From Opitutus sp. GAS368 (lineage in GTDB: Bacteria; Verrucomicrobiota; Verrucomicrobiia; Opitutales; Opitutaceae), in the NCBI GenBank assembly GCA_945871085.1, contig CAMBVX010000009.1, positions 1-45,800 of the forward strand: a stretch of DNA of 45,800 nt. The letters run 5' to 3'. Of this stretch, positions 1,728 to 21,992 are shown piece after piece. Within the stretch, counting starts at the first letter, position 1. Each line of letters begins with the position of its first letter. The translations under genes and the position numbers were made by a program. A model generated the notes under the pieces. It searched no databases. It saw only the letters and a program-made list of their open reading frames with translations, and was not told the DNA's origin.

Positions 1728-1860
1728 TCGACCATACTATCCGTCATTTCGGCGATGAATTTGAGGCTGAAGGATCGAGGTCTTTGAATTCAAAACTTCC
1801 GAAGGTCAAATTGGTAAAGTGTTCATCAAACTCGGCGGGCTTGTCTGAGAAGAGGTCTTG

Positions 1861-1909
1861 CTGAAAAGGGACTGGATTTTCAGGGGGATCGAATCCGGGA
1901 GGGGGTTTT
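1861..1909 (+). repeat. TBDR-region G-rich repeat copy 1
   Basis: ctgaaaagggactggattttcagggggatcgaatccgggagggggtttt; overlaps the 3' end of the sialidase CDS. Confidence 0.85.
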
Positions 1910-3151
1910 CACGAACGACTTCTCACTATCCCAAACCACCACGCCCATGTGATAATTCTTGGCCGAGTCCCAAGGATCTTCCGGCAAGGCCGACGCATAG
2001 TAGGCCGTCACGAGCTGTCCATCCGCACGCTGGACGGTTGAAGGATAGCCGCCATCGAGACCGTTCCAGTCGAGCAGCCGGATCGCTTCGCTCCAAGTTT
2101 CACCTCCGTCGGAGCTGATCGCCGCCTCGATTCCGCGGGAGGCCGTGGGGGAAAGCCGGGTCATCGCCTTGGCCCGCGCCGATGCTCCGGGATCGTTGCC
2201 GTGATTGGCGAAGGCCGACATGCGATCGCCATAGGTGAAAAGGACCCGCCCGTCCTTTAATTTGGCGAGATGACCGTTGACGCGCTGATACCCGGTCAAC
2301 GCCCGCTTGAACTGCCAGGTGCGGCCGTCGTCGGTGGAACCACATAGGATCAGGGCATCTTTTTTTTCCACTCCCGTGCCGGTGCGCGCCACGGCCAGCC
2401 AGCGGCCGTTCCCCACATGCAGCGCGGTGGTCTCGTTGGCTTCCGCCACCCGCACCGGATTGCCCCACGTCCGACCGTCGTCGCCACTGCGATAGAAATA
2501 AGCGGAAAACTTCCGGTCCTCGTATTTGTCCAGTCGCGACTCGGTCGTGTAAGCGATCACTCCCAAGTCTCCGTTCTGCGCGATATGCACATCGCCAAAC
2601 GGCGTGTTCGGCTGGCCCGTCGGGCCTCGTTCAGGAAATCCCCGCTGATCAATCCACCACGACAACCCACCGTCGGGGGAACGACTGAGCCATGGCCCCA
2701 AGGAATCATATCTAAACCTGCCGCGCGCCCGCGTAATTCCCGGCGGATAGCGATCTGTCCAGCCCGCCGTGAGTACGATCAAATCGCCGTTCGCGGCCAG
2801 GCCGGCGGCGTGGTTCATGCGGATCGTATCGGGCTCGTGTTGCGTGACGGCACTGCCGAATTTCCACGTCGCGCCGCCGTCGGCACTGAGCCAGCATTCG
2901 ACGTCGCCCGGGCGACTGCCGTGGCTGGCGTTGTTGAAGATGACCGCCGCCAGCGTGCGACCGTCTTTCAGTAATTTGAGATTCGGCCACGCGCAGTGAC
3001 CGGGCGCAGTGATCGATGGCTTGGGTCTCAGGCCCTCGCGGTTGACGGCATAGATGGACGGCGGAGGACCGTCGAACAACGGCGCCGCGGCAGCCCAAGC
3101 GTGCGACTCAAGACCCGTGGAAAGAAGAACGAGTAAAAAGCGGGAAATCAT
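1880..3151 (-). CDS. Sialidase / BNR-repeat exo-alpha-sialidase-like protein, secreted
   Basis: Start MISRFLLVLLSTGLESHAWA at 3151 rather than the 3259 ORF start. Five Asp boxes: SADGGATW, SPDGGLSW, SGDDGRTW, STDDGRTW, SSDGGETW. Confidence 0.85.
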   Translation of the reverse strand: MISRFLLVLLSTGLESHAWAAAAPLFDGPPPSIYAVNREGLRPKPSITAPGHCAWPNLKLLKDGRTLAAVIFNNASHGSRPGDVECWLSADGGATWKFGSAVTQHEPDTIRMNHAAGLAANGDLIVLTAGWTDRYPPGITRARGRFRYDSLGPWLSRSPDGGLSWWIDQRGFPERGPTGQPNTPFGDVHIAQNGDLGVIAYTTESRLDKYEDRKFSAYFYRSGDDGRTWGNPVRVAEANETTALHVGNGRWLAVARTGTGVEKKDALILCGSTDDGRTWQFKRALTGYQRVNGHLAKLKDGRVLFTYGDRMSAFANHGNDPGASARAKAMTRLSPTASRGIEAAISSDGGETWSEAIRLLDWNGLDGGYPSTVQRADGQLVTAYYASALPEDPWDSAKNYHMGVVVWDSEKSFVKTPSRIRSP

Positions 3152-3168
3152 GCGTGGAAAAATCGTGA

Positions 3169-6100
3169 TCAAAACACACCGCGAAAGCCGACCGTGAATG
3201 CCGCGCCGGCAAACTGCAACTGATCTATCCGGGCATACTCGGGCGTATTCGGAGCCCAAGTGCCCGATCGTTGCGGCGCACCGTTCAGGTTGCGCACGTC
3301 CGCATAAATCGTGGCGTGCTTGAGGAGCAGGTAGGCTAGCGAGACATCCACTTTCGTCTGCGGCGCATACGTGTTGTAACTGTTCGGCGGCACCGTGGCG
3401 CTGGCTGCGACCGGCGTGCGCCGCCGGTACCAGGTGTAATTATAGCCAACTTTGGCGCTGAATCGTTTTCGCGTGAAGCTGAGCGTTTGCTGAATCGTGC
3501 GCGGATTGAAATTAGTGAAGCTGTTGGCGTTTTCCCCGCCGAGCGTCATGCTGGTCAGGTTCGAGAACACCTGCAGGCCGCGTCCCCAACGGCCGAGCAC
3601 TTCGAGCGACTGGCGATAGCCGAACTCGACGCCCGTGATATTGGCTTTGCCCACGTTCCGCTTGGTGACGATGTCGTATCCCAGATACTCGTCCGGCAGA
3701 TCGAACTCCGCGAGCGTCGCGGCCGTGGCGACGACGCGCGTCGAACCGAAGAAGTCCGTGACGTTCTTGCGAAACATGCTAACCGATGCCACCGCACCTT
3801 TCACTTCGTACATTTCCAAGCTGAGATCGTAGTTGTCCGACGTCCACGGGCGCAGCGCCGTGTTGACCACAGTCACGATGCGACTGCCGGCCGGCGCATC
3901 GGGATCAGTGGCGGTCACTCCCGGAAGAATCTCGGGAAAATTTGGCCGACCAATCGTCCGCGCATACGCGACGCGGGCCACGAAATCACGCGTGAACCAA
4001 AAGCTCGTGTTCACGCTGGGGAAAAAGCCGTCGTAACTGTTCTCGGTGTGCGTGCCATGCCGCAAGTACTGGAGCTTGGCCGCGTCCAGAACATTGGTGG
4101 TGATGCGGACCAGCGCGCCACTGGCGTTGCGGACGAAATTTCCGTCAGGGCCGCGCCGATACGTGTTGCGCACGTCGTTAAGCGGCCCCCAGCCTTCGTC
4201 GTCCGTTCGCTCGAAACGAATCCCACCCACCACCCACAAACGGTGTTCGAAGAATTTGGCGTCGCCGCGCAGATAAGCGGCGGTGATCTGCTCCTCGATC
4301 GTCTTGGCTGCGTTGACCGCTGCGGTGTAGGCGCCCGATTCGTTGAAGACGAACCAGTCGGGATGCGCATCGTAGAGCGACTTGATCCTCGCGAGGCTCA
4401 TCCACTGGACGGGGACCGCGTGGCCGTTTGCATCGGTAAAGTGATTTCGCGCCGAGAACCCATCCGCGATGAGATCGTAATTCCCAATGAGCCGCGCATT
4501 CGCTCCACCCGGCGGACTAAACGCCCAGCTCTTGTTGCCGCCCACGATTTCGTTCCGCGTCCAATTGAAAAGGGCGCCGGTCTTGAGCGTGAAGATAAAG
4601 GGCAGATCGAGTTCGCAGGACACGTTGATGGCCGCCCGCTTCCCCTCGTTGTTGATATCCGATTCGGCACTCGAAACACCGATCAGCGTGTAGTTATTGC
4701 CATTGTGGATATCGACCGGAGCTCCGGAGCGGTTCAGTGCGGTGACAATCGGAGTGCGCCCCGATGCCGCCGCGCCAAGCTGATCGTTGCGCAGGATCAG
4801 ATTCGCAATCGTGGTCGACGCCGCGCGCGTGAAGAAGCCGTCCGATATATCCGTGAACCGGGTTCGGACTTTCGAGTACGCGGCACTGGTGTCGCTTTTC
4901 CATTTCGCGCCGTTGAAGCGCTGCACCACGGTAAACAAATCCAGCGTCTTGAGCGCGTTGGTCCAAATGGGATCCATCGCCACGCTGCCCACCCCCGTCG
5001 CCGCCCCTGCGATAAACGTCGGTCCACCCGTGGCGTTGGCGCCGAAGGTCGACGTGATGACATTCTGCCGCGTCACCGGCGCCTGGCTCGAATGCGAGCC
5101 GCTCACGCTGATCGTGTTATTGGCATTCAGTTTCCAATCGACGGTGCCCGCAGCGAGCAACTTGCTCTCGGCGATCGCCAGCGCGTTCATCGAGTTGCTG
5201 GTCAGCCGCAGATTCACCTTGTCCCAGATCGGGCGGCGGTAATCCCAGTCGCTATAGCGATCGGATTTGCTGAGTGAAAACGCCAGCCCCAGCGAAGGAC
5301 TGACGGGAGCGAGATAGGACAGATTCAGGGACGGCTGGATCCGATGCCTGTTGGATTTTCCGTCGGGACCGTCGCTGCGCGCGAAGATCGAATCGAGGCC
5401 TTCTACGCCGTCCAGCGTCGTGAAGGTCGTATAGAGATTGTAGCTGAACAGCGGCTTCTTCCGGCTGAAACCACTCTTCGTGATCAGGTTGATCATTCCA
5501 CCGACGGCGTTCGCCGGCATGTCGGGCGTGGGGACTTTTGTGACTTCGATGCGATCGATGTTTCCCGTCGCGGTCACGCCGAGATCCGTCTCACGCCCCG
5601 AGGTGTACGAGTTCGAAGCCATCTCCATGCCGTTCGTCGTCACCAGCGTGCCGCTGGCCGGCATGCCGCGGATCGAAACGAACTGCGGACTCTGCGGGCT
5701 TTGATCAATGCCGATGCCCGGGACGTATTTGAGAAATTCGCCGACGTTACCTTCACCCGTGTCCACATCGATCGCGATCACGTTCTTGATGTTGGGCGCA
5801 TTTCGCCGCTCGTGCAGCGCCACGGCCTGACCGGTCAACTCACGTTCCAGCACCGTGAAAGCCGCCAGGCGCACAAGCTCACTACCGCGTGCGCCCAAGC
5901 CCTCCAAAGCGAGTTCAAAATCCAACCGCACGACCGCGGCACCCGTTACCGGTACTTCGGTCGTGCGCGATGTGAGGCCGGTGTAGGAGGCCGTGACGCG
6001 GACGTCTCCTGACGCCACGCCCGCGAGCCGGTATTCTCCGTTTTCGTTCGTGAAGGTTTCGAGATTCGTACCCGCGAGATGAATCCGCGCGTTGTTGAGA

Positions 6101-6558: not shown

Positions 6559-6637
6559 AGGGTGAAAGGGGTGGGGGGCTCCTAAGAAACTACACTTGTT
6601 AATCGGTTGGGTTTCAACGTTGACCCTGTTTATTTCT

Positions 6638-6717
6638 GTCACGGCCAAAATCCGATTCCGGGGCGGGGGCTGAGAGGAAACTGGATTTTCAGGGGGAGCG
6701 GATACGGGCAGGGTTTA
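6638..6717 (+). repeat. TBDR-region G-rich repeat copy 2 (long form)
   Basis: tgtcacggccaaaatccgattccggggcgggggctgagaggaaactggattttcagggggagcggatacgggcagggttt; abuts the TBDR 2 stop codon. Confidence 0.85.
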
Positions 6718-6719
6718 AG

Positions 6720-9700
6720 TCAGAAACTTCCCTTCAGTCCGACGGCGAGGGCGATGCCGAATTCCGACTCGCGAAGTTGGCGGGCGTACTCGGGGGTCAC
6801 TGGGCCGTAACGCAAGAGGGTTTGCGGCACATTCAGGGCGTTGCTGACACTCATATTTAACGAGAATTGTTTGTTAATCTGATAGGCCCCGTTCAGGTCG
6901 AGCTGCGTGCGCGCGGCATAGTACTGGAATGCATCGGGCCCGTAGGCGGGCTGCGCGCCCAGCCGGTTGAGCCCGCGATAATTCCACTTCGCGATCAAGG
7001 TGATTTGCTTCCGGCTGAAGGAGACGCCCCAATTCGCCGACTTGGGGATGAAACTGGTGAAATCGGCCTGGCTTGGCCCTTCGAGCTGAAGCTTGGTGGC
7101 GTTCGCAAACACCGTGAAGTAGGCGCCCCAAGCTCCCAGATTCCGGAGCGCCTGCCGGACGTTAAACTCCGCGCCTTTGATGCGGGCGTTCCCCGCGTTG
7201 AACTTGGTGGACAGATTCCAATTCACGTAGCGGGGGTCGAGGCCCACGCCCGCCAAGTCTTCCAGCTTGGCGACTTTCACCGAGCTGCCAAAAAAGTCTT
7301 TGATTTCCTTGAGGAAAAGCCCGCCACTCGCCACGCCGCCACTCTGCGTATAATATTCAAGCGAAAGGTCATAGTTATCCGCGGACCACGGTTTCAAGGC
7401 GGTATTCCGGATCGTCACCGTACCTCGGACCACCTCAGGATTATTCAGGTCGGCGTCGGAAAGGTCCCGCTCGCTGAAGGTGGCATTGGGAATGATGTCC
7501 GTGAAGTTGGGGCGGCCGTAGGTTTTGGCGTAGGCCAATCGCGCCAGAAAGTTTTCCCGGATGTTGTAGGTAGCGTGGAGGCTGGGGTAGTAACCGTGGT
7601 AAGATCGCGCGTTGGTGAAGGCGCGTTCCTGGCGGATGATGCGCAACTCTTCCATTGAGCCCACGGGGCCGGCCTCCGGCTTGCGGAGGCGGGCGCCCGC
7701 GGCGTTGCGCGCGAACGTCCCGTTGGCCGCGCGAATCCAGACCGCATCCGGATCGAACCGCGAACCCTCTCCTTGGTCCGTCGTTTTTTCAAACCGGGCG
7801 CCGGTGAGCAGGTTGAGCCGGTTGTTCAGCAGGCGCGCCTCCGCTTGGAGATAAAGAGCGGATACGGTTTCTTTGATGTACTCGGAATTGGTCAGGCGGT
7901 AGCTTTCCTCGGCGACGACTTGCGCTGCAGTTTGCGTAAACAGTTTCGGATTAGCCTGATTCGCCGCATAGGCGCGGTTAACCGATGTCCACGGCACATT
8001 TTTGAAGCCATAGAAAGGATCCTGCCCCTTGTACACCTGCATCAAGAATGGTTCCGGACTGTCGGCCGTCGCCGGATCTCCGTCTGGGCCATTGTAGGTT
8101 AAGCCGCTGCTCCCAAGGCGGGTATCGACGCCGAGCGTGCTCTGAAAGGCGCCGGTCTGCACGGCGAAGGGAAAGCTAAAGAAGTTGAAGCGGCGTTTCA
8201 GGTTCACGTTCGCGGATCGAAAGATCGATGCGTTATCGTAGGGTGCCGTTGTTACCGTGTTCAGCCGGTAATTCTTGATATTGTAGAGGTCGACCTCCCG
8301 GTTGCTGTTGTCATACGCCTTGATCGCGCCGGGCTGATCGGGGTTCGCGTCGGTGAACGAGATCCGCACGGGATTGATCAAAACGGATGTCATGCCGGAA
8401 TAGTGTCCGGTATTTGGGCGCGACCGCGTCGAGGTCGAGGTATTCATGCCCGCTTCGACTTTCCAGTGGCCGTCGTCAAATCGGTAATTAAGATTGGCGA
8501 CATTCGTATCGCCAAGAAATGTTTGCGCGCTCCCTGAAAGCGTCGCCGCGCCGCGCCCCGTCGCTCCAACCGTAAAATTATTTCCGTAGCTCATGGGTAC
8601 GCCACCCACGATGCTGGGTGTGCCAACGGTCCCCGCACTCGTTGCCCAGCTGAGCGTGCCAATGTAGATCACAAATTTGTTAGTCTGCGCACCAAAGGAG
8701 AGGACCCCGCTGGGGCTCACCCGCCAGTCCGCCTTGAGGCTAAAGGCGGTGCGCCGCTGGCTCCGGGGGCCGTCTTGCAGCGTGTGCTGTTGCAAATAGG
8801 GCTTATCGAACGTCGCCCCGCTCGCGGTGCCGGCGGCATTGTGCAGCATCGTCGAGAGATGCTGCTCGTTATATTTGTCGCTCTGAAAACCTGTCACGAT
8901 GAGGCCGAAATTCTTGTTCAGAGGGAGCGTGTAGTCGAAATCCCAGCCCGGCAGAATTTTGCGCGTGTCGTGATCCCCGTTGGAATGGGGGGTCCGGCTG
9001 AGGGTCAGATTTTCACTGTTGGCCACGAAATTCAGGCCGAAGTTGAATTGGGCCCGACTCCGCTCAAAGGCACTCTTGCTCACCATGTTAATCGACCCCG
9101 CCAAGGAATCGGCGGGTGTCGCCGGGGTAGGCACTTTCGTCACCTCCACCCGGGAGACATTATTCAATGAGCTCACGTTCATATTAAATGACCGCGACGC
9201 GGCCCCACCTGCAGCCGAGACCACGGAGGCGCCGTCCGATGTGAACGACGTTTTATCGGAGCCGAGCCCGCGCACGGAAATTCCGACAATTTCAACTTCG
9301 CTGTACTCGGTGGCCAGACCGGGAATAAATTTGAGGAACTCACCGACGTTGCCGCCGAGGACATCGCCGAAGGAATCGGAGGCCAGGACGTTCTTGATGT
9401 TGGGCGCAAACCTCTGCTCGTTGATCGCAAGGGATTTTCCGTCGGTCTCGCGGTCGGAGGTGACCACAAAGTTGCCCAGCTTTACGATGTCCGGTTTCTC
9501 GCCGTAGCGCGCCTTGCTCGTGAGCTCCACGTTTTGTTCGACCGCTCCGCCGGGCGGGACCGTGATCGCGATTTGCTGGGGATCCAGATCGGTAAAAAAG
9601 ATCTCGAGGATGACCGGCCCGATCGGAACGTTGACGAGCCGGTAGCCCCCGAATTCATCCGTGTAGGTGATTGCGTCCGAGCCTTTGATCGAGATGCGCG

Positions 9701-9896
9701 CGTTGTTAAGGTAGCGGCTCGTCACTACGTTCTGGACGCGGCCGGAGATCGAGCTCGCCCGAGCGGAGGCTGTCGGGGAGCTGCCTCCGGCGGACGCTGC
9801 TCGGGCCGGCGCCAGCGAGAGGAGAAGCCACATCCCGAGGAGAGCGAGGGGCATTTGGTGGCTCACGGCGCGAGACGGCTGGCGGATTTGATTCAT
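6720..9896 (-). CDS. TonB-dependent receptor 2 (CarboxypepD_reg-like + plug + barrel)
   Basis: 1058 aa; SISGRVQNVVTSRYLNNARISIKG; NEQRFAPNIKNVLASDSFGDVLGGNVGEFLKFIPG; C-terminal GLKGSF. Confidence 0.92.
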   Translation of the reverse strand: MNQIRQPSRAVSHQMPLALLGMWLLLSLAPARAASAGGSSPTASARASSISGRVQNVVTSRYLNNARISIKGSDAITYTDEFGGYRLVNVPIGPVILEIFFTDLDPQQIAITVPPGGAVEQNVELTSKARYGEKPDIVKLGNFVVTSDRETDGKSLAINEQRFAPNIKNVLASDSFGDVLGGNVGEFLKFIPGLATEYSEVEIVGISVRGLGSDKTSFTSDGASVVSAAGGAASRSFNMNVSSLNNVSRVEVTKVPTPATPADSLAGSINMVSKSAFERSRAQFNFGLNFVANSENLTLSRTPHSNGDHDTRKILPGWDFDYTLPLNKNFGLIVTGFQSDKYNEQHLSTMLHNAAGTASGATFDKPYLQQHTLQDGPRSQRRTAFSLKADWRVSPSGVLSFGAQTNKFVIYIGTLSWATSAGTVGTPSIVGGVPMSYGNNFTVGATGRGAATLSGSAQTFLGDTNVANLNYRFDDGHWKVEAGMNTSTSTRSRPNTGHYSGMTSVLINPVRISFTDANPDQPGAIKAYDNSNREVDLYNIKNYRLNTVTTAPYDNASIFRSANVNLKRRFNFFSFPFAVQTGAFQSTLGVDTRLGSSGLTYNGPDGDPATADSPEPFLMQVYKGQDPFYGFKNVPWTSVNRAYAANQANPKLFTQTAAQVVAEESYRLTNSEYIKETVSALYLQAEARLLNNRLNLLTGARFEKTTDQGEGSRFDPDAVWIRAANGTFARNAAGARLRKPEAGPVGSMEELRIIRQERAFTNARSYHGYYPSLHATYNIRENFLARLAYAKTYGRPNFTDIIPNATFSERDLSDADLNNPEVVRGTVTIRNTALKPWSADNYDLSLEYYTQSGGVASGGLFLKEIKDFFGSSVKVAKLEDLAGVGLDPRYVNWNLSTKFNAGNARIKGAEFNVRQALRNLGAWGAYFTVFANATKLQLEGPSQADFTSFIPKSANWGVSFSRKQITLIAKWNYRGLNRLGAQPAYGPDAFQYYAARTQLDLNGAYQINKQFSLNMSVSNALNVPQTLLRYGPVTPEYARQLRESEFGIALAVGLKGSF

Positions 9897-9945
9897 GGCA
9901 GCAGGAGGTTGTTTGGGGTGGAGTCTGGGACGGTTCGAAATGGGG

Positions 9946-10218: not shown

Positions 10219-11885
10219 TTCAGCTGCGGAGGCTGGTCGCCGTAGGCCCAAGGCTTGCCGATCGGACCGTTCGGACGTTCGGGCAGCTTCGCGGGCTTCA
10301 TCTTCGCGGCGAGTTCGAGGCCGACGTTCATGAACTGCGTGCCGGCGGTGATCTCGAGATTGCTGTAGCTCGTCAGCCGCGTCTCGTAACCGCCGCCGTG
10401 CGGACCGAAGGCTTCTTCGTCCGGCACATAGCCGACGCAGCCATTCGCGAGTTCGACCGGGAAGGTCATCGGGAATCCGCTACGCTTCTTGAGCTGAAGT
10501 CCGTAGGAGACAAAATACTCGGCGGGATTGGAGAGACAGACCACCGGACCGACCTGAATGGCCTGCACCTCGACCTCGACGTCACGCTTCTTGGCGATCA
10601 AGGCGTCAAGCAGGAGAGTTTCCTTGGCCCAGACCCAATCTTTGTGGGCGGGCGGGCCCTTGATGCGTTCACGGGCCTCGGCGATGTGCTCAGGGGTGGG
10701 AATACGGCGATGTACCTCCCAGATCTTATGGTCGGCGGCCAGCGGTACTTCGGCCGTACGGGTCTGCGACATGCTCAGGAGGACTTTGAGGGATTCAGCG
10801 CCCACGCGGCCGCCGACGAACTGGGACCAGTCGTCGGAGGCCGGATTGGCCTTGGGGTCGAGATTGTTGACCTGGGTGATATCGCCGCAGGCACCCTGCA
10901 GGAAGACCACCTTGGCGTCCTTGCCGTAATACCCCTGGATGACCTTCTCGGTGTAATAGATCCAGTTCGCGCCGATGCCGTCGGAGTTCGTGGTGGCGTG
11001 GCAGGAGAAGTTGACAATGCAGCCCGCGAGCGTGCCGTCAGGGCGCCAGACGCCGATCACGCCGACCTCATCGTCGATCGGATTGGCGAACTCGACCACG
11101 TCAGGGTTATTCTTACCCGGATGAGAGAAGGTGAGACCGTTCTTCATGCGCACACGGCGATTGAAAGCCACCTGGCTCTCATGGCCGACGCCGTAGCCGA
11201 CCGTCACCGTAGCCTTGGTCTGATCGGCCGCAACGATGGCTTCGACCGTGGCCGCGACGACTTTCTTGAGATAGCCCGCATCGGCGCAGGATGACTTTTT
11301 GTAAGCGAGTTCCTGGATCTCGGCAGAAGCGTGGTCGAACTCGCCGGGCAGGATCATTCCGATCGGACCGGAGGAGTGGGAATGCGAAGCGCCAATCATC
11401 ACGTCGGTGATGCCCGTGGCGGCCTTCACCAATCCGCGGATCTCCAACACCGTCTCGCGGCGGATCATCAAGGCGTCGATGCCCACGAGTGCCACGCGCT
11501 TCTGCCCATCGTCGAAGACGCTCGCACGCACCTTGCACGCGTCGTGGATCTTCTTCGCGTAGACCTTCCCGTAATTGCCCGGGACCTCCATGCCGATGTC
11601 GGGCGTGATGTCGCGATCGGCGAACCCCACGCGTACGCCGGGCTTGGCCGGCGGCGCGGCGAAGAGGGTGACGGAAGTCAGGACCAGCAGGACATGGCGG
11701 AAACCGAGTCGGGGAAAACTGATAGGGGTATGAGCAGGTATGCGGGGGGGAAGGTTCCCGGGACAAGCGCACGAGTATGGGGTCAGACCGACTGATCGGG
11801 GACTACGGATACTGATCGGCAACTGGATTTTCAGGGAGATCGGGTCCGGGAGGGGCATGGTGGGAGCTGGATGAGTTAGCCGCAC
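10215..11885 (-). CDS. Neutral/alkaline non-lysosomal ceramidase-like protein (true start uncertain, probably well downstream of 11885)
   Basis: VRVGFADRDITPDIGMEVPGNYG; IGASHSHSSGPIGM; FSCHATTNSDGIGANW; FLQGACGDITQVN. The N-terminal about 50 residues translate repeat copy 3 (PLPDPISLKIQLPIS). Confidence 0.8.
   Translation of the reverse strand: MRLTHPAPTMPLPDPISLKIQLPISIRSPRSVGLTPYSCACPGNLPPRIPAHTPISFPRLGFRHVLLVLTSVTLFAAPPAKPGVRVGFADRDITPDIGMEVPGNYGKVYAKKIHDACKVRASVFDDGQKRVALVGIDALMIRRETVLEIRGLVKAATGITDVMIGASHSHSSGPIGMILPGEFDHASAEIQELAYKKSSCADAGYLKKVVAATVEAIVAADQTKATVTVGYGVGHESQVAFNRRVRMKNGLTFSHPGKNNPDVVEFANPIDDEVGVIGVWRPDGTLAGCIVNFSCHATTNSDGIGANWIYYTEKVIQGYYGKDAKVVFLQGACGDITQVNNLDPKANPASDDWSQFVGGRVGAESLKVLLSMSQTRTAEVPLAADHKIWEVHRRIPTPEHIAEARERIKGPPAHKDWVWAKETLLLDALIAKKRDVEVEVQAIQVGPVVCLSNPAEYFVSYGLQLKKRSGFPMTFPVELANGCVGYVPDEEAFGPHGGGYETRLTSYSNLEITAGTQFMNVGLELAAKMKPAKLPERPNGPIGKPWAYGDQPPQLK
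11812..11854 (+). repeat. TBDR-region G-rich repeat copy 3
   Basis: ctgatcggcaactggattttcagggagatcgggtccgggagggg, with a duplicated left half at 11791. Confidence 0.8.
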
Positions 11886-12285
11886 ATCAGTCGATTTTGA
11901 GAGGGCGGCGGGGACGGCTAATGCTGGGGACTTGGCGTGGGGAACGGCGGCGGCGGAAAGGGGGATTTCGGGCGCGAATCGAGGTACTGCTTGCCGTTTG
12001 GGGGCAATCAGCGCGGGGTGGGGATGCGCGGATGCAGTGATTCGGATCGCTCGGAGTCAAGGAGCCAGCGTTTTTAGAATCGCGGTAAACTCCTAACCGG
12101 GGTCGGACCCGCTTGCGCGGACGCGCCGCCAATGACACCCCACACGGCCTTCGGGATCAGACTGCTAGACGGGCTTAGAAAAATACCCGGGTAAGGACGA
12201 TGGATCGCTTGCCTCGCGGAAAGAACCGCTCACCGGCATGCACGATCTGCGGCGATATTCCGGCCTCGCGCACGGTGTTGCTTTT

Positions 12286-12356
12286 TGTCACGGCCAAAAA
12301 TCCGATTTTGGGGCGGGGGCTGATAGGAAACTGGATTTTCAGAGGGATCGGATCCG
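12286..12356 (+). repeat. TBDR-region G-rich repeat copy 4 (long form)
   Basis: tgtcacggccaaaaatccgattttggggcgggggctgataggaaactggattttcagagggatcggatccg. Confidence 0.85.
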
Positions 12357-12403
12357 CTGATAGTAAACTGGATTTTCCGGGGGATCGGGTCCGGGAGGGG
12401 TTT
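12357..12403 (+). repeat. TBDR-region G-rich repeat copy 5, in tandem with copy 4
   Basis: ctgatagtaaactggattttccgggggatcgggtccgggaggggttt. Confidence 0.85.
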
Positions 12404-12484
12404 GCCACCGCTCGCTCACGCTCGCAGCTACGCTGCCTTCGTTTTTCAGAGGTTACCCAATTCTCAACGGCATGATCTTTTCGT

Positions 12485-15400
12485 TCAGAACGTCCCCTTG
12501 ATGCCGATCGTCCACAGGGAACCGTAGTCGATCTGGTTGCGGAAACGCGCCGAGGCCGGGGTGAGGGCATTGTAGATCTGCGTTTCCTCGGGCTCGGCGG
12601 TGAGGTTGCGCATGCTGGCGAAGACGGCGTAGCGCTTCCCCAACGTGTACTCGGCTTGGGCGTCGAGCGTGACGCGTCGCGGCACCCAGGTGAAATTATC
12701 CGTTGGCAGGCCGGCGCCCGCGACGGCGGCGCCTTGGCGCGCGCTGCGGTAGTTCCAATTGCCGCGGATGCTGAAACGCTCGCGTGTAAGACTCACGCCC
12801 CAGCTGCCGCTGCGCGGGAAGAAATTGAAACCGGAGTTGCCCACCAGCGCTCCGGTGCGGCGCTGTGTGGAGACGTTGCCGAAAATCTGCACGCCGCGGG
12901 CCCAGACCGGCAAAAAGGTGAGCGCCTGCTTGTAGTTCAGGCTCGAACCTTCCATGCGGACCGTGCCGGGCACGTTGTATTGGGTCTCGACGTCGAACTT
13001 GCCGTAAAGCTCCGGATCGAGGTCGTAGAGCGCGAGAAAGCCGGGCGGCGCGGCGGCGCGCGTGCCGCCGAAGAAATTCGTGAAATCGCGGCGGAACGCG
13101 TTGAGCGAAAGCTGGCCGACGCCGGCGAAGTAATATTCGAGGCGCACGTTGAGCGTGTCGGCGCTCCACGCCTTGATGCCGACGTTGTTCACGACGATCC
13201 GATTGGCCGGGGACGGGATGGCTTCGGCATCGGGCAACGTGACGCCGCCGGCGTACTGGTTGAAATCGGGCCGGCCGACCGAGCGGTAAACGGCGGCGCG
13301 GGCGATGAGGTTGTCACGCAGGTTGAAGCTGGCGTTGAGACTCGGGAACAGACGTAGGTACTCCTTATCGGCACGGCTGCCGCGTTCGATGAACGTGAGC
13401 CGGGAGTACTCGAGCGAATTCGTGTTGGGCACGATCGGCACGCGCTGGCCCTGGGCGTTGAGCTGGAAGTTGCGGGTCGGATCGGTGAGCGGGCCCTCGG
13501 CGTCGATGTTGGTTTGTTCCGCACGCAGGCCGCCGACGAGCTTGAGCCGGCGGGAAAAGAAGTGCGCGTCGCTGCGCAGGTAGGCGGCCGAAATCGTTTC
13601 CTTGGCATGCTTCGAGGATGTGACGATCGAGCGGTAGTCGTTGTTTGCGTTCAGACTGAATTGCGCGGGATTGGCGGCGTAGTGCTCCCACACCAGCGCG
13701 TTGCCGATGCCTTGGATCGCCGGCAGGCCAAACACGCCGCGGCGCGCCGAGTACACGGGATCGAGAAACGGCGCGGCGCTCTCCGCCGTGGCGGCGTTGC
13801 CGTCGGCGCCGAGGAAGGTCCACGCGGAATTGCGGTTGCGATTGTCGCGGACCGACTGGCGGACGTGGAAGCCGGTTTTCAGCCGGAGCGGGATCCGGCC
13901 GTAGAAATCGCGCGCGAGGTTGCCGTAGGCGGTGCGCTGCAAGTCGGACGTGTTGTTCTGGATCGCGCCGGCGGTATCGAGCGTCTTGCCCGCGATGGAG
14001 TAGGGATCGACGACGGCGCCGGTGGCGTTGTCGGTGACGGTGATGCGGTCGGGCCGCACATCCTGCATGCCGTCGAAGGCGATGGTGAGATTCCGGCGGA
14101 AGCCGGTGGTGCTGAAGAAGAGGCCCTTGTCGATGTCGCGGTTGCGGTTGGTCGAAGTCGAGTAGCCGAGACCCACATCGCCCTTCCAGGTTGGGCCCTG
14201 GTGCCGCCAGACCAAGGTCGGCGTGTGCGTGCGGTTGTGGCGGTCACGCACGAGATTGCTCAGCTGCAATTCGCCTTGGCCCGGCGCGCTGCGCGTGGAC
14301 AGCACGCTGAATTCGCCCGGGAGCACGCGGTTCAGCGCAAAGGTCAGCACTTGGTTCGAACCGTAGAGATGGAAGTAGGAAAACTGGTAGCCGAGGGAAA
14401 CCTGGTCGTAGCGCGAAACCTTTAAGTCGACTGTGGCCCCGAGGGAATTGCGGGTCGTGACCTTGGTGCCGTCACGATAGACGAAGCTGGTGAGGTACGG
14501 CCGGTCCGGCGTGGTCGCCGGGAAGTTGCCGCCGGTGGCCGCGCTTGTGCCGCGCCACACGGTCTGCGTCATGGGCTCCGGCGAAAAGTTGGTCGCTGAC
14601 CCACCCGAGATCGTGAAACCGAAACGTTTGCTGACCGGCGCGACGTAGGAGAAATCGAAACCGGGATCGATCTTGCGCGACGGCGTGAGCCGCGGGCCGG
14701 GCGTCTTCTTGAAATCGTGCTCGCCGCTGCGCATGATGAGGAAGGCGCTGGCGTTGAGCACCGGGCGGGCACGCTCGAAGGCGGAACGCGGCACCATGTT
14801 CACGGTGCCGGCGAGGGCATCGCCCGACGATTCGGGTGTCGGCGAATATTCGACCTCGATGCGCGAGAGATTGTTGATCGACACCATGTCCATCGCGACG
14901 GAGCGGCCGGTGTTGGTGTCGCCGACGCCCGCGCTCGCGAGGCTGAAGCCGCCGACGGTGATCGGCACGTTGGCGGAAGGGACGCCGTTGATCGAAATGG
15001 AGCGGGCGTTGCCGCCCGAGTCCTCGACCGTGATGCCGGGGAGAAATTTCAGGAAATCCGCGGCGTTGCCCTCGGCGACGAAGCCGAATTCGTCGGTCGA
15101 GAGCACGTTTTTGATGTTGGGCGCGAAACGCTGCTCGTTGATCGCGAGCGCGGACGCGGACATTTCCTTCGAGGTGGCGACGACGAAGGCGTCGAGCTGC
15201 ACGGTCCCGGCGTCGCCCGGCCGCGCGCCGAGCGTGAGATCGAGTTGCGCCGTCTGCCCGTTCGCCACCGCCACCGTCGCGGCCTGCTGCGCCAATCCGG
15301 TGAAGAACACGGTGATGCGGGCGGAGCCGGCGGGCACACCCGAGAAGCGGTAGTTACCGCCGTCGTCCGTAAAGGTCTCGAGCGTCGTGCCCTCGATGGT

Positions 15401-15559
15401 GAGACGCGCGCGTTCGACATAAGCACCGCTGGTGGCGTTGCTCACGCGGCCTTCGATCGAGCCAGTCGGCACGCCGTCGGCGGCATGGACGGAAGGGACC
15501 GGCGTCAGGGCGACAGCCAGCCAGGCAACGAGCAGCCGGAGGGGATTTTTGAGTTTCAT
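12485..15559 (-). CDS. TonB-dependent receptor 3 (CarboxypepD_reg-like + plug + barrel)
   Basis: Start MKLKNPLRLLVAWLAVALTPVPSVHAADG at 15559 rather than 15718; GSIEGRVSNATSGAYVERARLTIEG; NEQRFAPNIKNVLSTDEFGFVAEGNAADFLKFLPG; C-terminal GIKGTF. Confidence 0.92.
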   Translation of the reverse strand: MKLKNPLRLLVAWLAVALTPVPSVHAADGVPTGSIEGRVSNATSGAYVERARLTIEGTTLETFTDDGGNYRFSGVPAGSARITVFFTGLAQQAATVAVANGQTAQLDLTLGARPGDAGTVQLDAFVVATSKEMSASALAINEQRFAPNIKNVLSTDEFGFVAEGNAADFLKFLPGITVEDSGGNARSISINGVPSANVPITVGGFSLASAGVGDTNTGRSVAMDMVSINNLSRIEVEYSPTPESSGDALAGTVNMVPRSAFERARPVLNASAFLIMRSGEHDFKKTPGPRLTPSRKIDPGFDFSYVAPVSKRFGFTISGGSATNFSPEPMTQTVWRGTSAATGGNFPATTPDRPYLTSFVYRDGTKVTTRNSLGATVDLKVSRYDQVSLGYQFSYFHLYGSNQVLTFALNRVLPGEFSVLSTRSAPGQGELQLSNLVRDRHNRTHTPTLVWRHQGPTWKGDVGLGYSTSTNRNRDIDKGLFFSTTGFRRNLTIAFDGMQDVRPDRITVTDNATGAVVDPYSIAGKTLDTAGAIQNNTSDLQRTAYGNLARDFYGRIPLRLKTGFHVRQSVRDNRNRNSAWTFLGADGNAATAESAAPFLDPVYSARRGVFGLPAIQGIGNALVWEHYAANPAQFSLNANNDYRSIVTSSKHAKETISAAYLRSDAHFFSRRLKLVGGLRAEQTNIDAEGPLTDPTRNFQLNAQGQRVPIVPNTNSLEYSRLTFIERGSRADKEYLRLFPSLNASFNLRDNLIARAAVYRSVGRPDFNQYAGGVTLPDAEAIPSPANRIVVNNVGIKAWSADTLNVRLEYYFAGVGQLSLNAFRRDFTNFFGGTRAAAPPGFLALYDLDPELYGKFDVETQYNVPGTVRMEGSSLNYKQALTFLPVWARGVQIFGNVSTQRRTGALVGNSGFNFFPRSGSWGVSLTRERFSIRGNWNYRSARQGAAVAGAGLPTDNFTWVPRRVTLDAQAEYTLGKRYAVFASMRNLTAEPEETQIYNALTPASARFRNQIDYGSLWTIGIKGTF

Positions 15560-15757
15560 TGGGGTTTCGAGGGGGAGCGGGGTAAAGGTGAAGTTCCGGG
15601 CGGCGCGGCCGTTCGGGTCGGGTTGGCGCGCGATCCGCAGCACGCCGGAGCGCGCGCGCAGCGCGGCGGTCAGCGGCGTGCCGGCGAGCAACCGCACGAT
15701 CGCCAGCGAGGGCGCCATGCGGCCGCGGACGGCGTTACTGATAGGGGATTAGATTTA

Positions 15758-15804
15758 CTGACAGGAAACTGGATTTTCAGGGGGATCGGATCCGGGAGGG
15801 GTTT
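15758..15804 (+). repeat. TBDR-region G-rich repeat copy 6
   Basis: ctgacaggaaactggattttcagggggatcggatccgggaggggttt; ends 1 nt before the TBDR 4 stop triplet, with a left-half duplication from 15737. Confidence 0.88.
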
Positions 15805-15805
15805 G

Positions 15806-18799
15806 CTAAAACATGTACGTCGCCCGGACCGTCCACCCGTGGCGGACCCGCGGCAATTGGTAGCGGAGGACCGTGCCCGGCGTCGCCGCCGAGAACGGCA
15901 GGAGATCCTCCTGCCGGAAGAGGTTTTCGACGTTGAGCTGCAGATCGAGCGACTGGCCGCGGCGGATCCGAATCTGTTTTCCGATCATCAGGTTGAAGAG
16001 GATCGAACTCTGGCCATAGATCGGGTTGTTGTCGTTCGCGGCATCGAAACCGATCACCGCCGGGCCGCGGTAATTGGCGCCGAAGCCCACTCGCGCGGAG
16101 CGGAGCAGCGCCGGGACGCCCGCGGAAAAGCGATAGCTCGTGAAGGCGTTGAACGACTCGCCGACGAAGGAGAGCGGCGGCTTGCCGGTGCCGTAGTTCA
16201 CGATGTCCACGAGCGACTGCACGTAGTCGTAGGCGTCGTTGAACGTCGCAGGGTTGAGCACGAAGTCACGCGACGGCGTGTTGTCGCGCGCGCGGACGAA
16301 GGTCGCGACCGTGGCGGGGGTCGATTCGAGCGGTGAACGGCTGCCGTCCCACACGGCCTGGTTTTCAGCGAGCAAGCCCTTGATGCTCGGTGCGAGGTCG
16401 GTGAAGACGATTTCGGGCCGTGCGTAGTTGAGCGAGACGCTCCAGCCCGGCGCGAGCCGGCCGGTGATTTCGATTTCGCTGCCGCGGCCGTCCGACGTGA
16501 CCGTTTCGCGGTACTTGGAGGTTCCGACCTGGGTGGTGCCGCGGGCGGTGAGACTGGCGGGCAGCGGCTGGCCGGTGCGCAGCATCGTGGTGAGGATGTT
16601 GTTCAGGACGGGAATGCCCTGGCCGCGCACGGTGTTGCTGGTCACATCATGAAACTGATCCTGGCCGATGTTGCGGTAGGTGCTCACGTTCACGTAGAGG
16701 CGGCCGTCGAGGAGATTGAGGCGCATCGAGTAGTCGCGCCCCTCGCCCTTGCTCGGCACCAGCAGGCGGTCGTAGATGTCGGTGAAATTGCTCTGGGGAA
16801 AAACGCTCTCGGACTGGTTGTACGAAAAACCGAGCCACGGCAGGGGCATGACGACCGCGCCAAAGGTCTTGGTGGCGCCGGAGTACGAAGCGGCGGTGGA
16901 GTCATCGAAGATAAACGGGCGCGTGATCCACAGGTTGGTGGAGTTGGGCAGGCGCTCACCGCCGAGGGAGGCGTTGTTGTTGTCGATCGACTCCCGTCGA
17001 TAGCCGGCGGTGAGGACGATGCGATCACCCGGGAACCGGCTTTGCGCCGCGAGCATCCCGCTGGTGCTTTTGGTTTCGTTCCAAGGGTACGAGTTGTTGA
17101 AAATGTAGGCCGCCTTCAGGCCCTTCGCGTCGGGGATGGGGTTGGCCCAGGGGTCGAGCGCACCGCGGGCGCCACCGGGACTCCAAAAATCGAGGTAGGT
17201 GCGGCGGAAGATGATGTTCGTCGCGGAATCGATCGGCTGGGAGTTACCGGGGGCGATGTTGTATTCGCCCACCACGCCATTGCCGAAGACGTTGTTGTTG
17301 TGCTGCCATGATCCGGCGAAACTGTGGCGGCCCCACCAGGGGTGGCGCCGGGTCAGGTTGAGTTCGTAGCCCACACTGGCGCGCATCGATTCGCTTCGCT
17401 GATCGAACAGTTGCTGCGTCACCTGGCCCTGGACGTAGGGCAGGCCGACGAAGGGATTGGCCCGCGCGATGTCGGGCAGCAGCGTGCCCGGGTTGCGGCC
17501 GCCGGTGATCGCCGAATCGCCGTCGGCGTAATAGGCGCCGGGGAGGACGGGGTTGGGGTCGCCGATCGCGTTGGCCGCGGACTGGGTGAATCCGCGGCGG
17601 TAGGTCGTGCGATTGTAGCCGAACTCGAAATTCAGTCCGCCGACCCGCTGGTCGATGAAGACGGAGTAGAGCGTGTAGTTGTAGTTGGCGTTGCGGCCCG
17701 GGCCGGCGAGGTAGGCGTTGGCCGGGATGACCTGGCCCCAGTACGGATCGTCGACGGTGTTGCCGATGGGGGCGTTGGCCCCGGAAATCGTTTCCCAAAA
17801 ACCACTGGCCTGCGTACCCGGGAGATCCGGACGCAAATCGGCCCCGACCATGGAGAGGCGGAACGGCTGCGGACGGACCTGCGGCGCGAACACCACCTGC
17901 TGCGTGTTGCTGGAGCGCAGAAGCGCCGGGGCGGGATTCGTCCCGGGCAGAAGCGGGTTGCCCGCGAGCGGCGAACCGTTCTTCACCCAGCGCGAATAGC
18001 CAAAGTCGGCGTGCGGAAAATTACCGCCCGTCACCTGATCGCGGACCATCCGCTCGACGCCGGCCCGGACCTGCGTGCCTTTGAAAGGCTGATACGTCGT
18101 CGCCAGCGCGAAGCCCTTCTGCCGCTGCATCTCGAACTCAAACCAGCCCTCGCGATCCTCCCAGACGCCGTTGGTGCGCAGCGCCAGCTTGTCCTTGATC
18201 AGCGGCACTGCGAAATCGAACTCGGTGCGCTTCTTGGCAAAATTGCCCACCGTGAGCGTGACCGATCTCTGCCGGCCGTTCAGGACCGCCCGCTTCGAAG
18301 TCAGATTGAGCGCCCCGCCCGGGCGGCCCGCGCCAAAGAGAATGGAGTTGGGTCCGCGGCTCAGGTCGGCCCGGTCGACGTTGAACCGATCCGAGGCGAG
18401 AATGCCCCGGCCCTCGACCATGTTGGGCAGGTAGTCGCGCGAAATGACGGACTCCGTGAAGCCACGGATCGTCGCGCGCACATCGAACGCCTGTTGGATG
18501 CCGCCGGAGGGATCGCTGCGTTCGTGTTCCGAACTCATCGCGAACTTGAGCATGTCGCCGACGTTCTCGGCTCCGATGTCGTCGAGAAATTCCTTCGTGA
18601 GCACGGAGATCGCCGCCGGCGTGTGCAGCAGGCTCGTGTTCATCCGCGTGCCCGAAAGCGTATTGCTCGCCCGATAGCCCTCGTCGCCCTCGCTGGAGAC
18701 GACGAAGGGCGAGAGATTGATGACTTCGTTGTCCGCGGCCGGCAGGGCGGTCCCGAGGATGAGGATGGCCGCGCATGCGGCGGCCCGGTGGTGTGTCAT
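15806..18799 (-). CDS. TonB-dependent receptor 4 (siderophore-receptor-like, no CarboxypepD_reg domain)
   Basis: Start MTHHRAAACAAILILGTALPA at 18799; VINLSPFVVSSEGDEGYRASNTLSGTRMNTSLLHTPAAISVLTKEFLDDIGAENV; C-terminal RATYMF. Confidence 0.9.
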   Translation of the reverse strand: MTHHRAAACAAILILGTALPAADNEVINLSPFVVSSEGDEGYRASNTLSGTRMNTSLLHTPAAISVLTKEFLDDIGAENVGDMLKFAMSSEHERSDPSGGIQQAFDVRATIRGFTESVISRDYLPNMVEGRGILASDRFNVDRADLSRGPNSILFGAGRPGGALNLTSKRAVLNGRQRSVTLTVGNFAKKRTEFDFAVPLIKDKLALRTNGVWEDREGWFEFEMQRQKGFALATTYQPFKGTQVRAGVERMVRDQVTGGNFPHADFGYSRWVKNGSPLAGNPLLPGTNPAPALLRSSNTQQVVFAPQVRPQPFRLSMVGADLRPDLPGTQASGFWETISGANAPIGNTVDDPYWGQVIPANAYLAGPGRNANYNYTLYSVFIDQRVGGLNFEFGYNRTTYRRGFTQSAANAIGDPNPVLPGAYYADGDSAITGGRNPGTLLPDIARANPFVGLPYVQGQVTQQLFDQRSESMRASVGYELNLTRRHPWWGRHSFAGSWQHNNNVFGNGVVGEYNIAPGNSQPIDSATNIIFRRTYLDFWSPGGARGALDPWANPIPDAKGLKAAYIFNNSYPWNETKSTSGMLAAQSRFPGDRIVLTAGYRRESIDNNNASLGGERLPNSTNLWITRPFIFDDSTAASYSGATKTFGAVVMPLPWLGFSYNQSESVFPQSNFTDIYDRLLVPSKGEGRDYSMRLNLLDGRLYVNVSTYRNIGQDQFHDVTSNTVRGQGIPVLNNILTTMLRTGQPLPASLTARGTTQVGTSKYRETVTSDGRGSEIEITGRLAPGWSVSLNYARPEIVFTDLAPSIKGLLAENQAVWDGSRSPLESTPATVATFVRARDNTPSRDFVLNPATFNDAYDYVQSLVDIVNYGTGKPPLSFVGESFNAFTSYRFSAGVPALLRSARVGFGANYRGPAVIGFDAANDNNPIYGQSSILFNLMIGKQIRIRRGQSLDLQLNVENLFRQEDLLPFSAATPGTVLRYQLPRVRHGWTVRATYMF

Positions 18800-18871
18800 G
18801 AGGCGGGGGAAAGGCTGGGGGCTGAGATGCATCGATCCAGTTGAGAGATGAGGATTGAGAGATCGATTTTG

Positions 18872-18916
18872 CTCATCGGAAACTGGATTGGCGGGGGGGG
18901 GGGGGGGGAGGGGTTT
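18872..18916 (+). repeat. TBDR-region G-rich repeat copy 7, degenerate with a 16-nt poly-G run
   Basis: ctcatcggaaactggattggc(G)16aggggttt; G run at 18893-18908. Confidence 0.75.
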
Positions 18917-18934
18917 GGGGTACCGCCCAAATCC

Positions 18935-21892
18935 TCAGAACCGGCCGTTCACGCCCGCGGTGACCGTCACGAAATTATAGAGCGTGCGCTGGGAGCGGCT
19001 CTTGAAACCGCGGTAGAACGCCTGCGGCTCGTTGAAGAGGTTGGCCACGTCGAAACTGAAACCAAGCGACGGGCTCACTTGGTAGCCCACGCCCACGTTC
19101 ACGGTCTTCATGGAGAAACGATAGAGGTGCAGCGCCGGGCTGGTCGCGTTATAGGCCGTGATATATTCGCCCGTGAAGTTATAGAGGATGCGCGCGCTGA
19201 ATTTGCGATAACGCCACGACAACGACGCGTTGGCGGCATACGGGATGAAGCCCGGCACCTCGTGCCGCGTGAGGTAGACGTTGCCGTCAAACATTCCATG
19301 CGTGTCGATCCATGTGTAGTTAAAAGAACCGGCCAGGCCCTTGAGCAGGCCGGGCAGAAACGTGAACTGCTGCCGGTAGCTGAACTCCCAGCCCTGGGCC
19401 ACCGCGGTGCCCCCGTTGACCGAGGTGCGCTCCGTCCAGCCCGAATATTCGCCATCGTAGCCGTTGTCGGGTCCGCTGGGGATGATCCGGATTTCCTGGT
19501 TGTCGATGATGTAGTCGTGGATCTCCTTGTGGAACCAGCCCAGCGAGAGCTGGCCGACCGGTTCGAAATAATACTCGAGCGAGGTGTCCCAATTCTTTGC
19601 CGTCTGCGGTTGGAGGGCGGGGTTGTTGACGCTGAGACGCTGGTTCGCCTCGTCGGGCGTCTCGTTCACAAAAAAATTATTGAGCGCGGCGCGCCCGTAG
19701 CTGGTGGAAAAGCTGGCCCGCAGTTTCAGGTTCGACATGAGGTCGTGATGCGCATGCAGGCTCGGAAACGCGTTCGTGTAGCTGCCGTGAATCTCGCGGG
19801 CATTGTTCGCGTAATCACGCGCGGCGGAACCCGCCGGATCCGCCGTCTGCTGCGCCGCGGTGCTCAGGGCCCGCGACCGCACCCAGCCCCAACTGTCGAC
19901 CGTCGTTCCCTCGACGCGCACGCCGCCGAGGTAACCCGTCCGTCCCAGGAATCCATCGCGGCCCAGCCGCCCCTGCGCCATCGCATAGGCCGCCGAGGTT
20001 GACTCCGTGAGACTGCGCGTAGCGGTGAATTTCTGCGTCTCGTGATAGTAAAGATCCTCGCGCCAGACCGAGGGATCGCGCGGCCGGCGCTCGTTCATGA
20101 ACATGTGTGACTGCCACCGCGGAAAACGCAGGCCGGTTTCGCGCGCGGAATACCCGAGCAGATTCGGATCGGGGGCCAGCGGCCCGCCACCAATATAGGA
20201 CCAGCGATGGTTGTCCTTGCTCCAACTGTCCAGGCCCTGCTCGAGCCACGCCCCGCCGATCTTGAGAAACAGCGGTGTGGCAACCGGTGCCTCATAACGC
20301 ACGTTGAAACGGAACTGCGTCACCGACTGATCGGTTTGATTGTTGGTGTTCGTGAGCCCGTTGGCCGTCGGCCGGTAATTGTCGGGATTGAGGAAATCAG
20401 GGCCGCCGTTTTTCAGGAAGCGCGGAAACACATCCGACTCGGTGCGATCGAGGATCCAGGCTGCGCCCGCCAGTCGCATCGTGAGCTGACCGGCCGTCCC
20501 CTGCCCCGTGTTGAGATTGGTATAGCCCATGCCGCCCGCGTAATCGATCTGCCAGCGGCGGTATTTGTGCTCGCCCGTGAAATCCACCTGCCGCGTGCGC
20601 ACGTAGAAGTTGAGCGGACCGTCCATCAGGATGTCGATGTTCGAGGCAGCCAACGGACGGACGACGGTGATCTTGTCGGTGAACTGGCCGGGCACGACTC
20701 CGGTCGTGGTCGCGTTGGGGACGGTGTTGGCATTGCCCGTAAAGGCGCGCACCTCCATCCGCCGCCGGTGCCGCTCGAAATTGTCGTTGCCGAGCAGCGT
20801 CACCGAAAAACGCGTCGTCGGCGACCACTGGTAATCGGTCCGCAGGTTGACGCTCGTCTGCTTCCGGTTGTTGATGTTGTCCCACTGGCGGAAGTCCCAG
20901 ACATACGCGGCGGGCGCGAGTGTGTTCTGGTAGTCGAGCGTGGTGCTGGCGCCACCGACCGCGTTTTCGCTGTAGAAAAGATTGAGCGAGACCGCGAGGT
21001 TGCGCGTGCCGCCAAAGACGTCGAACACCTCTTGGTGGGCGAGGCTCGCCAACGGATGCGCCCGATGCTTTTCGCGCAGCGGCATCTGCTCGAAAAACGA
21101 CGGCGCGATGCGCGCCGTCAGGCTGTAGGTGGTCCGCCGCTTTTCCCGCATGGTCAGCGGGGAGCGGGTCTTCAGGTTGATGGTGCCCCCGAGGGAGGCG
21201 GCGCCCGTGTCGGGCCGGTGCCCTTTGGTGAGCTCCAGCGCCTCGAACATCGTGCCGGTGATGCTCTGCAGTTGGAACGTGCGGTTGGTGTTTACGCTGG
21301 GCAGCACACCGCCGTCGATCGTCACGGAGTTGAGCTGCGGATCCATGCCGCGGATGTTGAACCAATACGCCAGCCCTTCGTCGGTCGGGCTGCCGGCGAC
21401 GCCCGGCAATCGCATCACGACTTCGCCCGCGCTCATGTTGGGCAGGTTGCCGAAGGAATCCATCGCCACGATGTTCTTCACGTTTTCGGCGTTGCGCTGC
21501 TGCGTGATCGCGGCGGCATCACCCTCGCGTTCCCCGGTGACCTTGAATGCGTCCATTTTGTAAAGCGCCGTCGTGAGATCGAAATTCCGCCGGACCCGCC
21601 CGCCCGCCTCAACCGTCACCGGAGCGCGGACCGCATCGAGGCCGATATAGGTGACCTCGAGGTTGTACGTGCCCGCCGGAACACCCGTGAGCACGTAGCG
21701 ACCGGTCGCGTCGGTGAAGACGGAGTGGCCCAGCTGGGGCAGGACCACCCTGGCGCCCTCGAGCAGGTTACCCGTGGCGACATTGCTCACGGCACCGCTT
21801 ACCGTGCCGGAGCCCGTCTCGGCCGCGAAGCCGCGCGTGAAAATGAGAACGAGCCAGGTCAGAAGGACGGCGATGGGGTAGTTGGGTTTCAT
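18935..21892 (-). CDS. TonB-dependent receptor 5 (CarboxypepD_reg-like + plug + barrel)
   Basis: Start MKPNYPIAVLLTWLVLIFTRGFAAETG at 21892; GTVSGAVSNVATGNLLEGARVVLPQLG; QQRNAENVKNIVAMDSFGNLPNMSAGEVVMRLPG; C-terminal GVNGRF. Confidence 0.92.
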   Translation of the reverse strand: MKPNYPIAVLLTWLVLIFTRGFAAETGSGTVSGAVSNVATGNLLEGARVVLPQLGHSVFTDATGRYVLTGVPAGTYNLEVTYIGLDAVRAPVTVEAGGRVRRNFDLTTALYKMDAFKVTGEREGDAAAITQQRNAENVKNIVAMDSFGNLPNMSAGEVVMRLPGVAGSPTDEGLAYWFNIRGMDPQLNSVTIDGGVLPSVNTNRTFQLQSITGTMFEALELTKGHRPDTGAASLGGTINLKTRSPLTMREKRRTTYSLTARIAPSFFEQMPLREKHRAHPLASLAHQEVFDVFGGTRNLAVSLNLFYSENAVGGASTTLDYQNTLAPAAYVWDFRQWDNINNRKQTSVNLRTDYQWSPTTRFSVTLLGNDNFERHRRRMEVRAFTGNANTVPNATTTGVVPGQFTDKITVVRPLAASNIDILMDGPLNFYVRTRQVDFTGEHKYRRWQIDYAGGMGYTNLNTGQGTAGQLTMRLAGAAWILDRTESDVFPRFLKNGGPDFLNPDNYRPTANGLTNTNNQTDQSVTQFRFNVRYEAPVATPLFLKIGGAWLEQGLDSWSKDNHRWSYIGGGPLAPDPNLLGYSARETGLRFPRWQSHMFMNERRPRDPSVWREDLYYHETQKFTATRSLTESTSAAYAMAQGRLGRDGFLGRTGYLGGVRVEGTTVDSWGWVRSRALSTAAQQTADPAGSAARDYANNAREIHGSYTNAFPSLHAHHDLMSNLKLRASFSTSYGRAALNNFFVNETPDEANQRLSVNNPALQPQTAKNWDTSLEYYFEPVGQLSLGWFHKEIHDYIIDNQEIRIIPSGPDNGYDGEYSGWTERTSVNGGTAVAQGWEFSYRQQFTFLPGLLKGLAGSFNYTWIDTHGMFDGNVYLTRHEVPGFIPYAANASLSWRYRKFSARILYNFTGEYITAYNATSPALHLYRFSMKTVNVGVGYQVSPSLGFSFDVANLFNEPQAFYRGFKSRSQRTLYNFVTVTAGVNGRF

Positions 21893-21945
21893 GGGTGAAT
21901 TGTAGCGGTGGGGAACGGCGACGTACAAAGAAGACAACGACCTTG

Positions 21946-21992
21946 CAGAAAGGAAATTGGACTTTCAGGGGGATCGGATCCGGGAGGGGTTT
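21946..21992 (+). repeat. TBDR-region G-rich repeat copy 8
   Basis: cagaaaggaaattggactttcagggggatcggatccgggaggggttt. Confidence 0.85.

Follow-up and report, generated by a model that had tools for sequence, protein, structure and literature searches.

What is the short G-rich repeat that recurs, always reading the same way, through the first 22 kb of a 45,800-nt stretch of the Opitutus sp. GAS368 draft genome (hereafter, the window)? An initial annotation made from the sequence had listed eight copies, placed them exclusively among genes for TonB-dependent receptors (TBDRs), and proposed either a functional element at gene 3′ ends or a mobile repeat that targets such ends. Our comparisons indicate that the repeat is very probably the oriIS-side (right) terminus of an Opitutaceae IS91-family rolling-circle (HUH) transposon.

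The repeat was present at all eight listed positions, on the plus strand; two of the listed starts, 6638 and 12286, take in a second block, C, that adjoins the core (Table 1). With up to three mismatches allowed, the 22-nt centre of the repeat matched the window five times, compared with zero matches in dinucleotide-preserving shuffles. As annotated, copies lie downstream of stop codons when read on the gene strand, and the 22–45.8 kb half is free of them (none reaching E = 0.1 in a profile search). Read on the strand of the genes, which is minus in the window, the core is AAACCCCTCCCGGATCCGATCCCCCTGAAAATCCAGTTTCCTATCAG, 47 nt long (47–48 nt by the profile of copies), and conservation falls steeply at both of its ends. 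These two ends are unrelated by inspection, with no terminal inverted repeats, and matches between flanks did not exceed those of shuffled pairings, from which we infer no target duplication. Neither strand of the core folded better than shuffles (z-scores of −0.68 and −0.33), no hairpin or imperfect palindrome was found in it, the oriIS secondary structure described for the IS91 family was not evident in it, and Rfam yielded no matches in the window at gathering score. The core has no dyad and was rejected as an integron attC site. A coding role was rejected as well: the core does have an open frame, continuing into the 5′ extension A1, but variation does not follow codon positions.

Table 1 Copies of the repeat core and adjoining blocks in the window
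Feature	Position	Strand	Evidence
Core, probable solo IS91 right end, transposase-sense strand	1860..1907	-	profile E = 1.7e-12
Block C, palindrome near its start, ends GTTTCTTAGGAG, directly after core	6577..6668	-	
Core, 3 nt past stop of TBDR 6720-9896	6669..6716	-	profile E = 1.9e-13
Core, probable right end of a composite non-autonomous element	11812..11855	-	profile E = 3.9e-12
Block A2, 5′ extension of core, also at four other places in the genome	11859..12081	-	
Block C, immediately past truncated core; composite element's apparent left end	12276..12318	-	
Core, 5′-truncated, stacked on copy 12357..12403	12319..12356	-	profile E = 7.8e-12
Core, ~80 nt past stop of TBDR 12485-15718	12357..12403	-	profile E = 6.5e-15
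Core, 1 nt past stop of gene 15806-18832	15758..15804	-	profile E = 1.2e-16
Core, degenerate	18872..18916	-	profile E = 0.11
Core, terminating a longer probable IS91 fragment	21945..21992	-	profile E = 1.6e-14
5′ extension of core 21945..21992	21993..22223	-	comparison with reference element

The window copies differ in their state and surroundings. The degenerate copy has its middle replaced by a run of about 16 G (plus strand), the copy at 15758..15804 is followed by a partial 20-nt unit, and 21948–22223 forms a 276-nt IS91 right-end fragment with 79% identity to the reference element. The open reading frame of a BNR-repeat gene (1880–3151) ends at 1880, its last codons and stop being supplied by the core copy at 1860..1907. 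On contig C207 (11876), a core is preceded by the same upstream 60 nt as at this gene (window 1860–3151).

Searches of the whole genome and of other Opitutaceae, which the annotation had suggested, showed the family to be widespread in both. In the 7.37-Mb draft genome, a profile search at E ≤ 1e-4 gave about 30 core copies spread over 14 contigs, so that the supposed confinement to the TBDR region does not hold; within most of its contigs, copies share one orientation. A 24-nt pattern recovered the family from many Opitutaceae metagenome-assembled genomes, amounting to at least hundreds of copies, all such counts being lower bounds. Genome-wide counts derive from searches; across the collected loci, which are fragmented drafts with contigs breaking at repeats and include loci of related genomes, 251 copies were scored. 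Taxon labels are doubtful for some contigs: copies were also seen in L120, L121, L138 and L142, on contigs labelled Rubrivivax, Akkermansia, Chthoniobacter and Cytophagaceae, which are probably mislabelled bins and possibly cases of transfer.

Five genes adjoining window copies encode TBDRs, one recognized by its plug domain only, and TBDRs recur beside copies on contigs C207, C430 and C79. The annotated link to TBDRs is nonetheless a local one: neighbours elsewhere include a sulfatase, Gfo/Idh/MocA oxidoreductases, a 3-keto-disaccharide hydrolase, an M19 dipeptidase, LacI and an amidohydrolase. Overall, copies are associated with catabolic clusters rather than with TBDR genes in particular.

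The identity of the repeat emerged from its longer copies. Eleven loci have an IS91 transposase gene, whole or as its 3′ part, on the same strand as the core and upstream of it (C332 and C77 in the window's own genome; L211, L172, L190, L194, L121, L184, L175, L109 and L197), with the transposase C-terminus mostly 120–300 nt from the core. The window's own draft genome yielded transposase fragments only, with no intact gene seen, and relatives carry full-length transposases. One of these, the L277 protein, matched Y2_Tnp (1.7e-19), Zn_Tnp_IS91 (2e-16) and the NCBIfam IS91 equivalog (162 bits, cut-off 125), and bears the motifs HPHVHV (HUH) and YYGWY (tyrosine pair). The L277 and L280 proteins both match PF04986 and PF14319 and score above the NF033538 cut-off; against ISCR clade Ia they reached 107.8 and 117.4 bits, respectively, compared with a cut-off of 925. 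In an all-against-all comparison, copies of A1 shared a single 3′ end and reached upstream for 80 nt to ~1,000 nt; in the longest, the same strand also encodes the C-terminal part of an IS91-type transposase. The fixed end thus lies 3′ of the transposase gene and truncation affects the opposite side, as is typical of the IS91 family. The combination of 5′ truncation and a fixed 3′ end had hinted at a retro-element, a reading that we dropped once the upstream gene was recognized as encoding an IS91 transposase.

Solo units could be tied to the IS91 element of their own genome, because end variants are shared within G249 and four other genomes. In G249, the genome of L277, the right end of the full-length IS91 is diverged, AACCCCCACCCGACCCAACCCCAGCAAAATCCGGTTTCCTTCCAG, and lies ~230–250 nt past the end of the transposase gene; this sequence occurs there as two copies with a 5′ extension and as seven solo 45–48-nt units, 98–100% identical and with starts no more than two bases apart. 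In L280, L281, L284 and L286, a transposase-linked or nearby end is paired with a copy of the same variant 2–3.3 kb away.

Two further observations were made at such loci. L277, L280, L281, L284 and L286 each hold a gene-sized segment (2–3.3 kb) between near-identical right ends, near an IS91 transposase gene. In L279, full-length IS91 homology to relatives ends at the 5′ boundary of the core (~2238, transposase-sense), the core being missing or replaced there.

Three blocks recur beside the core: the 5′ extensions A1 and A2, which run into it without a gap, and the 3′ block C, which nearly always follows directly after a core or another C end. Near its start, block C has a palindrome, CCARAATCGGATTYTGG, the two sides of which vary together in the window (CCAAAATCGGATTTTGG / CCAGAATCGGATTCTGG; 6577–6668 and 12276–12318). 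The block resembles a left end, both for A2-type elements and for an ~88-nt mini-element ending GTTTCTTAGGAG, and its copy at 6577..6668 is probably a second, stacked mini-element. The layout of the ~0.5-kb C–A2–core composite at 11812–12318 recurs on contig C99. Full and 5′-truncated cores also occur in arrays, with one orientation per array.

The left ends suggest how solo cores might arise. Among 98 distinct left ends mapped on the reference element, 54 coincide with AAAC, the site at which the core begins. The last 150 nt contain two NAAC sites only, AAAC and TAAC, and independent truncations stop at TAAC too. Outside the AAAC hotspot, 4 of 30 truncations were at NAAC (2.0 expected; 12 versus 6.8 in a wider set), which is only suggestive of a tetranucleotide rule. 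The right flank, a candidate target, was TAA in 47 of 158 cases and CAA in 16, a weaker preference than that described for IS801. No clean empty site was found, and a search of the genus of G249 gave no simple filled/empty pair.

Trapped right-end fragments of the IS91-family element IS801 end at a GAAC-like tetranucleotide and sometimes carry upstream DNA along, and have been attributed to one-ended transposition (PMC3189936). By analogy, the solo core may be the product of an IS801-like one-ended transposition with a much nearer stop site. The transposase would nick at the oriIS end, and replication would peel off the G-rich strand, starting CTGATAGG, towards the transposase gene. Most events would end early, at the first NAAC (AAAC, ~47 nt in), and insert a 47-nt ‘solo ori’; less often, they would stop further in to give 5′-truncated copies of 80 to ~1,000 nt, or replication might continue into neighbouring DNA. 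Movement would be in trans, and new copies would preferentially insert next to the right end of one already present, making arrays grow on that side. What the data themselves show is the transposase linkage, the common 3′ end, the graded 5′ truncation, the genome-specific identity of solo and full-length ends, the arrays and the orientation bias; the enzymatic steps and the movement in trans are inferred.

G249 may hold an instance of capture. Two contig termini, the last part of C71 and the first part of C89, align to adjacent and overlapping segments inside the C19 region (L318 end, L299 start, L317 1612–1837), and each is bordered externally by a core, as if this stretch had possibly been copied with a solo end on either side. 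The overlaps are exact over 127 nt, which is probably the word length of the assembler; this possible event therefore rests on assembly joins and is not proof.

Copies were then placed relative to neighbouring genes, which were called with a custom codon-usage gene caller. Among 137 distinct intergenic copies with both neighbours known, 76 were sense to both, 6 antisense to both, 33 in convergent and 22 in divergent regions; in those loci, background gene pairs separated by 48 nt or more were co-directional (279), convergent (78) or divergent (74). Copies are therefore not concentrated at gene ends; between two neighbours running the same way, their orientation is constrained. Those with an identical counterpart in their own genome, and for that reason probably young, were sense to both neighbours in 11 cases and antisense to both in none. 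The single orientation first noticed in the window is thus real (76 versus 6), and the survey of orientation and stop distance bore out the bias but not an enrichment at stop codons. Distances from the upstream stop ranged from −2 to more than 1,000 nt, medians between co-directional genes were 120 nt to the stop and 145 nt to the next start, with the stop not favoured, and only 13 of 129 copies fell within −2 to +3 of a stop. As for a mobile repeat that targets gene ends, the mobility stands, but the targeting does not, given the spread of stop distances and the 22 copies in divergent regions.

Transposition alone does not account for the orientation bias. Its cause is perhaps selection, whether favouring an outward promoter or disfavouring mRNA that contains the G-rich strand; alternatively, targeting may be strand-selective. 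An exapted outward promoter, by which sense ends were kept for driving the downstream gene, is compatible with the repeat being an IS91 end and would account for the orientation; we consider it conceivable, if on balance unlikely. The oriIS of ISCR1 offers a precedent, with two outward promoters and co-oriented downstream genes (PMC6218425), and copies in divergent regions lie nearer the sense start in 17 of 22 cases (p = 0.0025). However, a promoter pair is not evident by eye in the 47 nt, in convergent regions there is no gene for a copy to drive, and the TAA flank is independent of downstream gene direction. It was found in 27 of 77 copies when the downstream gene was sense and in 15 of 32 when it was antisense, giving no sign of promoter selection on this flank.

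The functional 3′-end element proposed by the annotation (a terminator, a Rho-loading C-rich tract, or an RNA stability or protein site selected after stops) is very improbable. Such an element would suit the strong sense bias, the C-rich, G-poor composition of the gene-strand copy, which is like that of a Rho-loading site, and those copies that abut stop codons. Against it, copies span the whole intergenic space and lie as near to starts as to stops, 22 are in divergent regions, which contain no gene end, and there is no significant fold or Rfam match; the repeat, moreover, behaves as the end of a transposon, transposase sequence being present in its longer copies. The position data likewise do not fit a Rho site or terminator. 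A REP-like or MITE-like repeat moved by an IS200/IS605-type TnpA-REP or a DDE transposase would be short, intergenic, sharply bounded and numerous, as this one is, but the family has no palindrome, terminal inverted repeats or target duplication and its linked transposase is of the IS91 type, leaving this origin barely credible.

If the repeat is taken as an IS91 right end, many Opitutaceae genera appear to have accumulated copies by one-ended transposition, in tens per genome and mostly as 47-nt solo ends, which would form a natural record of rolling-circle transposition starts, stops and insertions. The 76-to-6 orientation rule poses a testable question: promoter, cost of G-rich mRNA or strand-selective targeting. 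A bolder proposal, which we regard as speculative and improbable, is that the 47-nt solo end is a self-contained unit mobilized in trans that copies and stacks catabolic genes, such as those for TBDRs and sulfatases, into co-oriented arrays. If true, the solo end would be among the smallest mobile units described, rolling-circle replication would start wherever one sits and run into upstream DNA, and polysaccharide-use islands would undergo Helitron-like gene shuffling.

The family can be compared with four known systems. It shares with REP elements and bacterial MITEs the form of short, dispersed intergenic repeats and, probably, movement in trans, whereas REPs are palindromic and MITEs have inverted ends, features that the unit lacks. 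Helitrons, for which rolling-circle movement is likewise proposed, resemble it in having truncated copies, capturing flanking DNA and inserting beside copies already present, but are eukaryotic and have a transposase with a helicase domain (PMC4778049). ISCR elements such as ISCR1 have a related HUH transposase, and genes past their ori end are co-oriented with the element (PMC6218425, PMC13393415); the Opitutaceae transposase, in contrast, matches the IS91 equivalog and falls far short of ISCR clade Ia (107.8 versus 925 bits). Closest are the one-ended products of IS801/IS91, with an intact right (ori) end, a truncated left end at a GAAC-like tetranucleotide and occasional carriage of upstream DNA (PMC3189936). 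One-ended transposition in the IS91 family is known from trapping, and in Pseudomonas syringae few genomic fragments have been attributed to it (PMC3189936). Those IS801 products are 229, 360 and 679 nt long and few in genomes (PMC3189936), whereas the Opitutaceae unit is 47 nt, occurs in tens per genome, and is arrayed and oriented with genes. New here are a mobile solo end of so small a size and its copy number, along with the growing arrays and the orientation rule.
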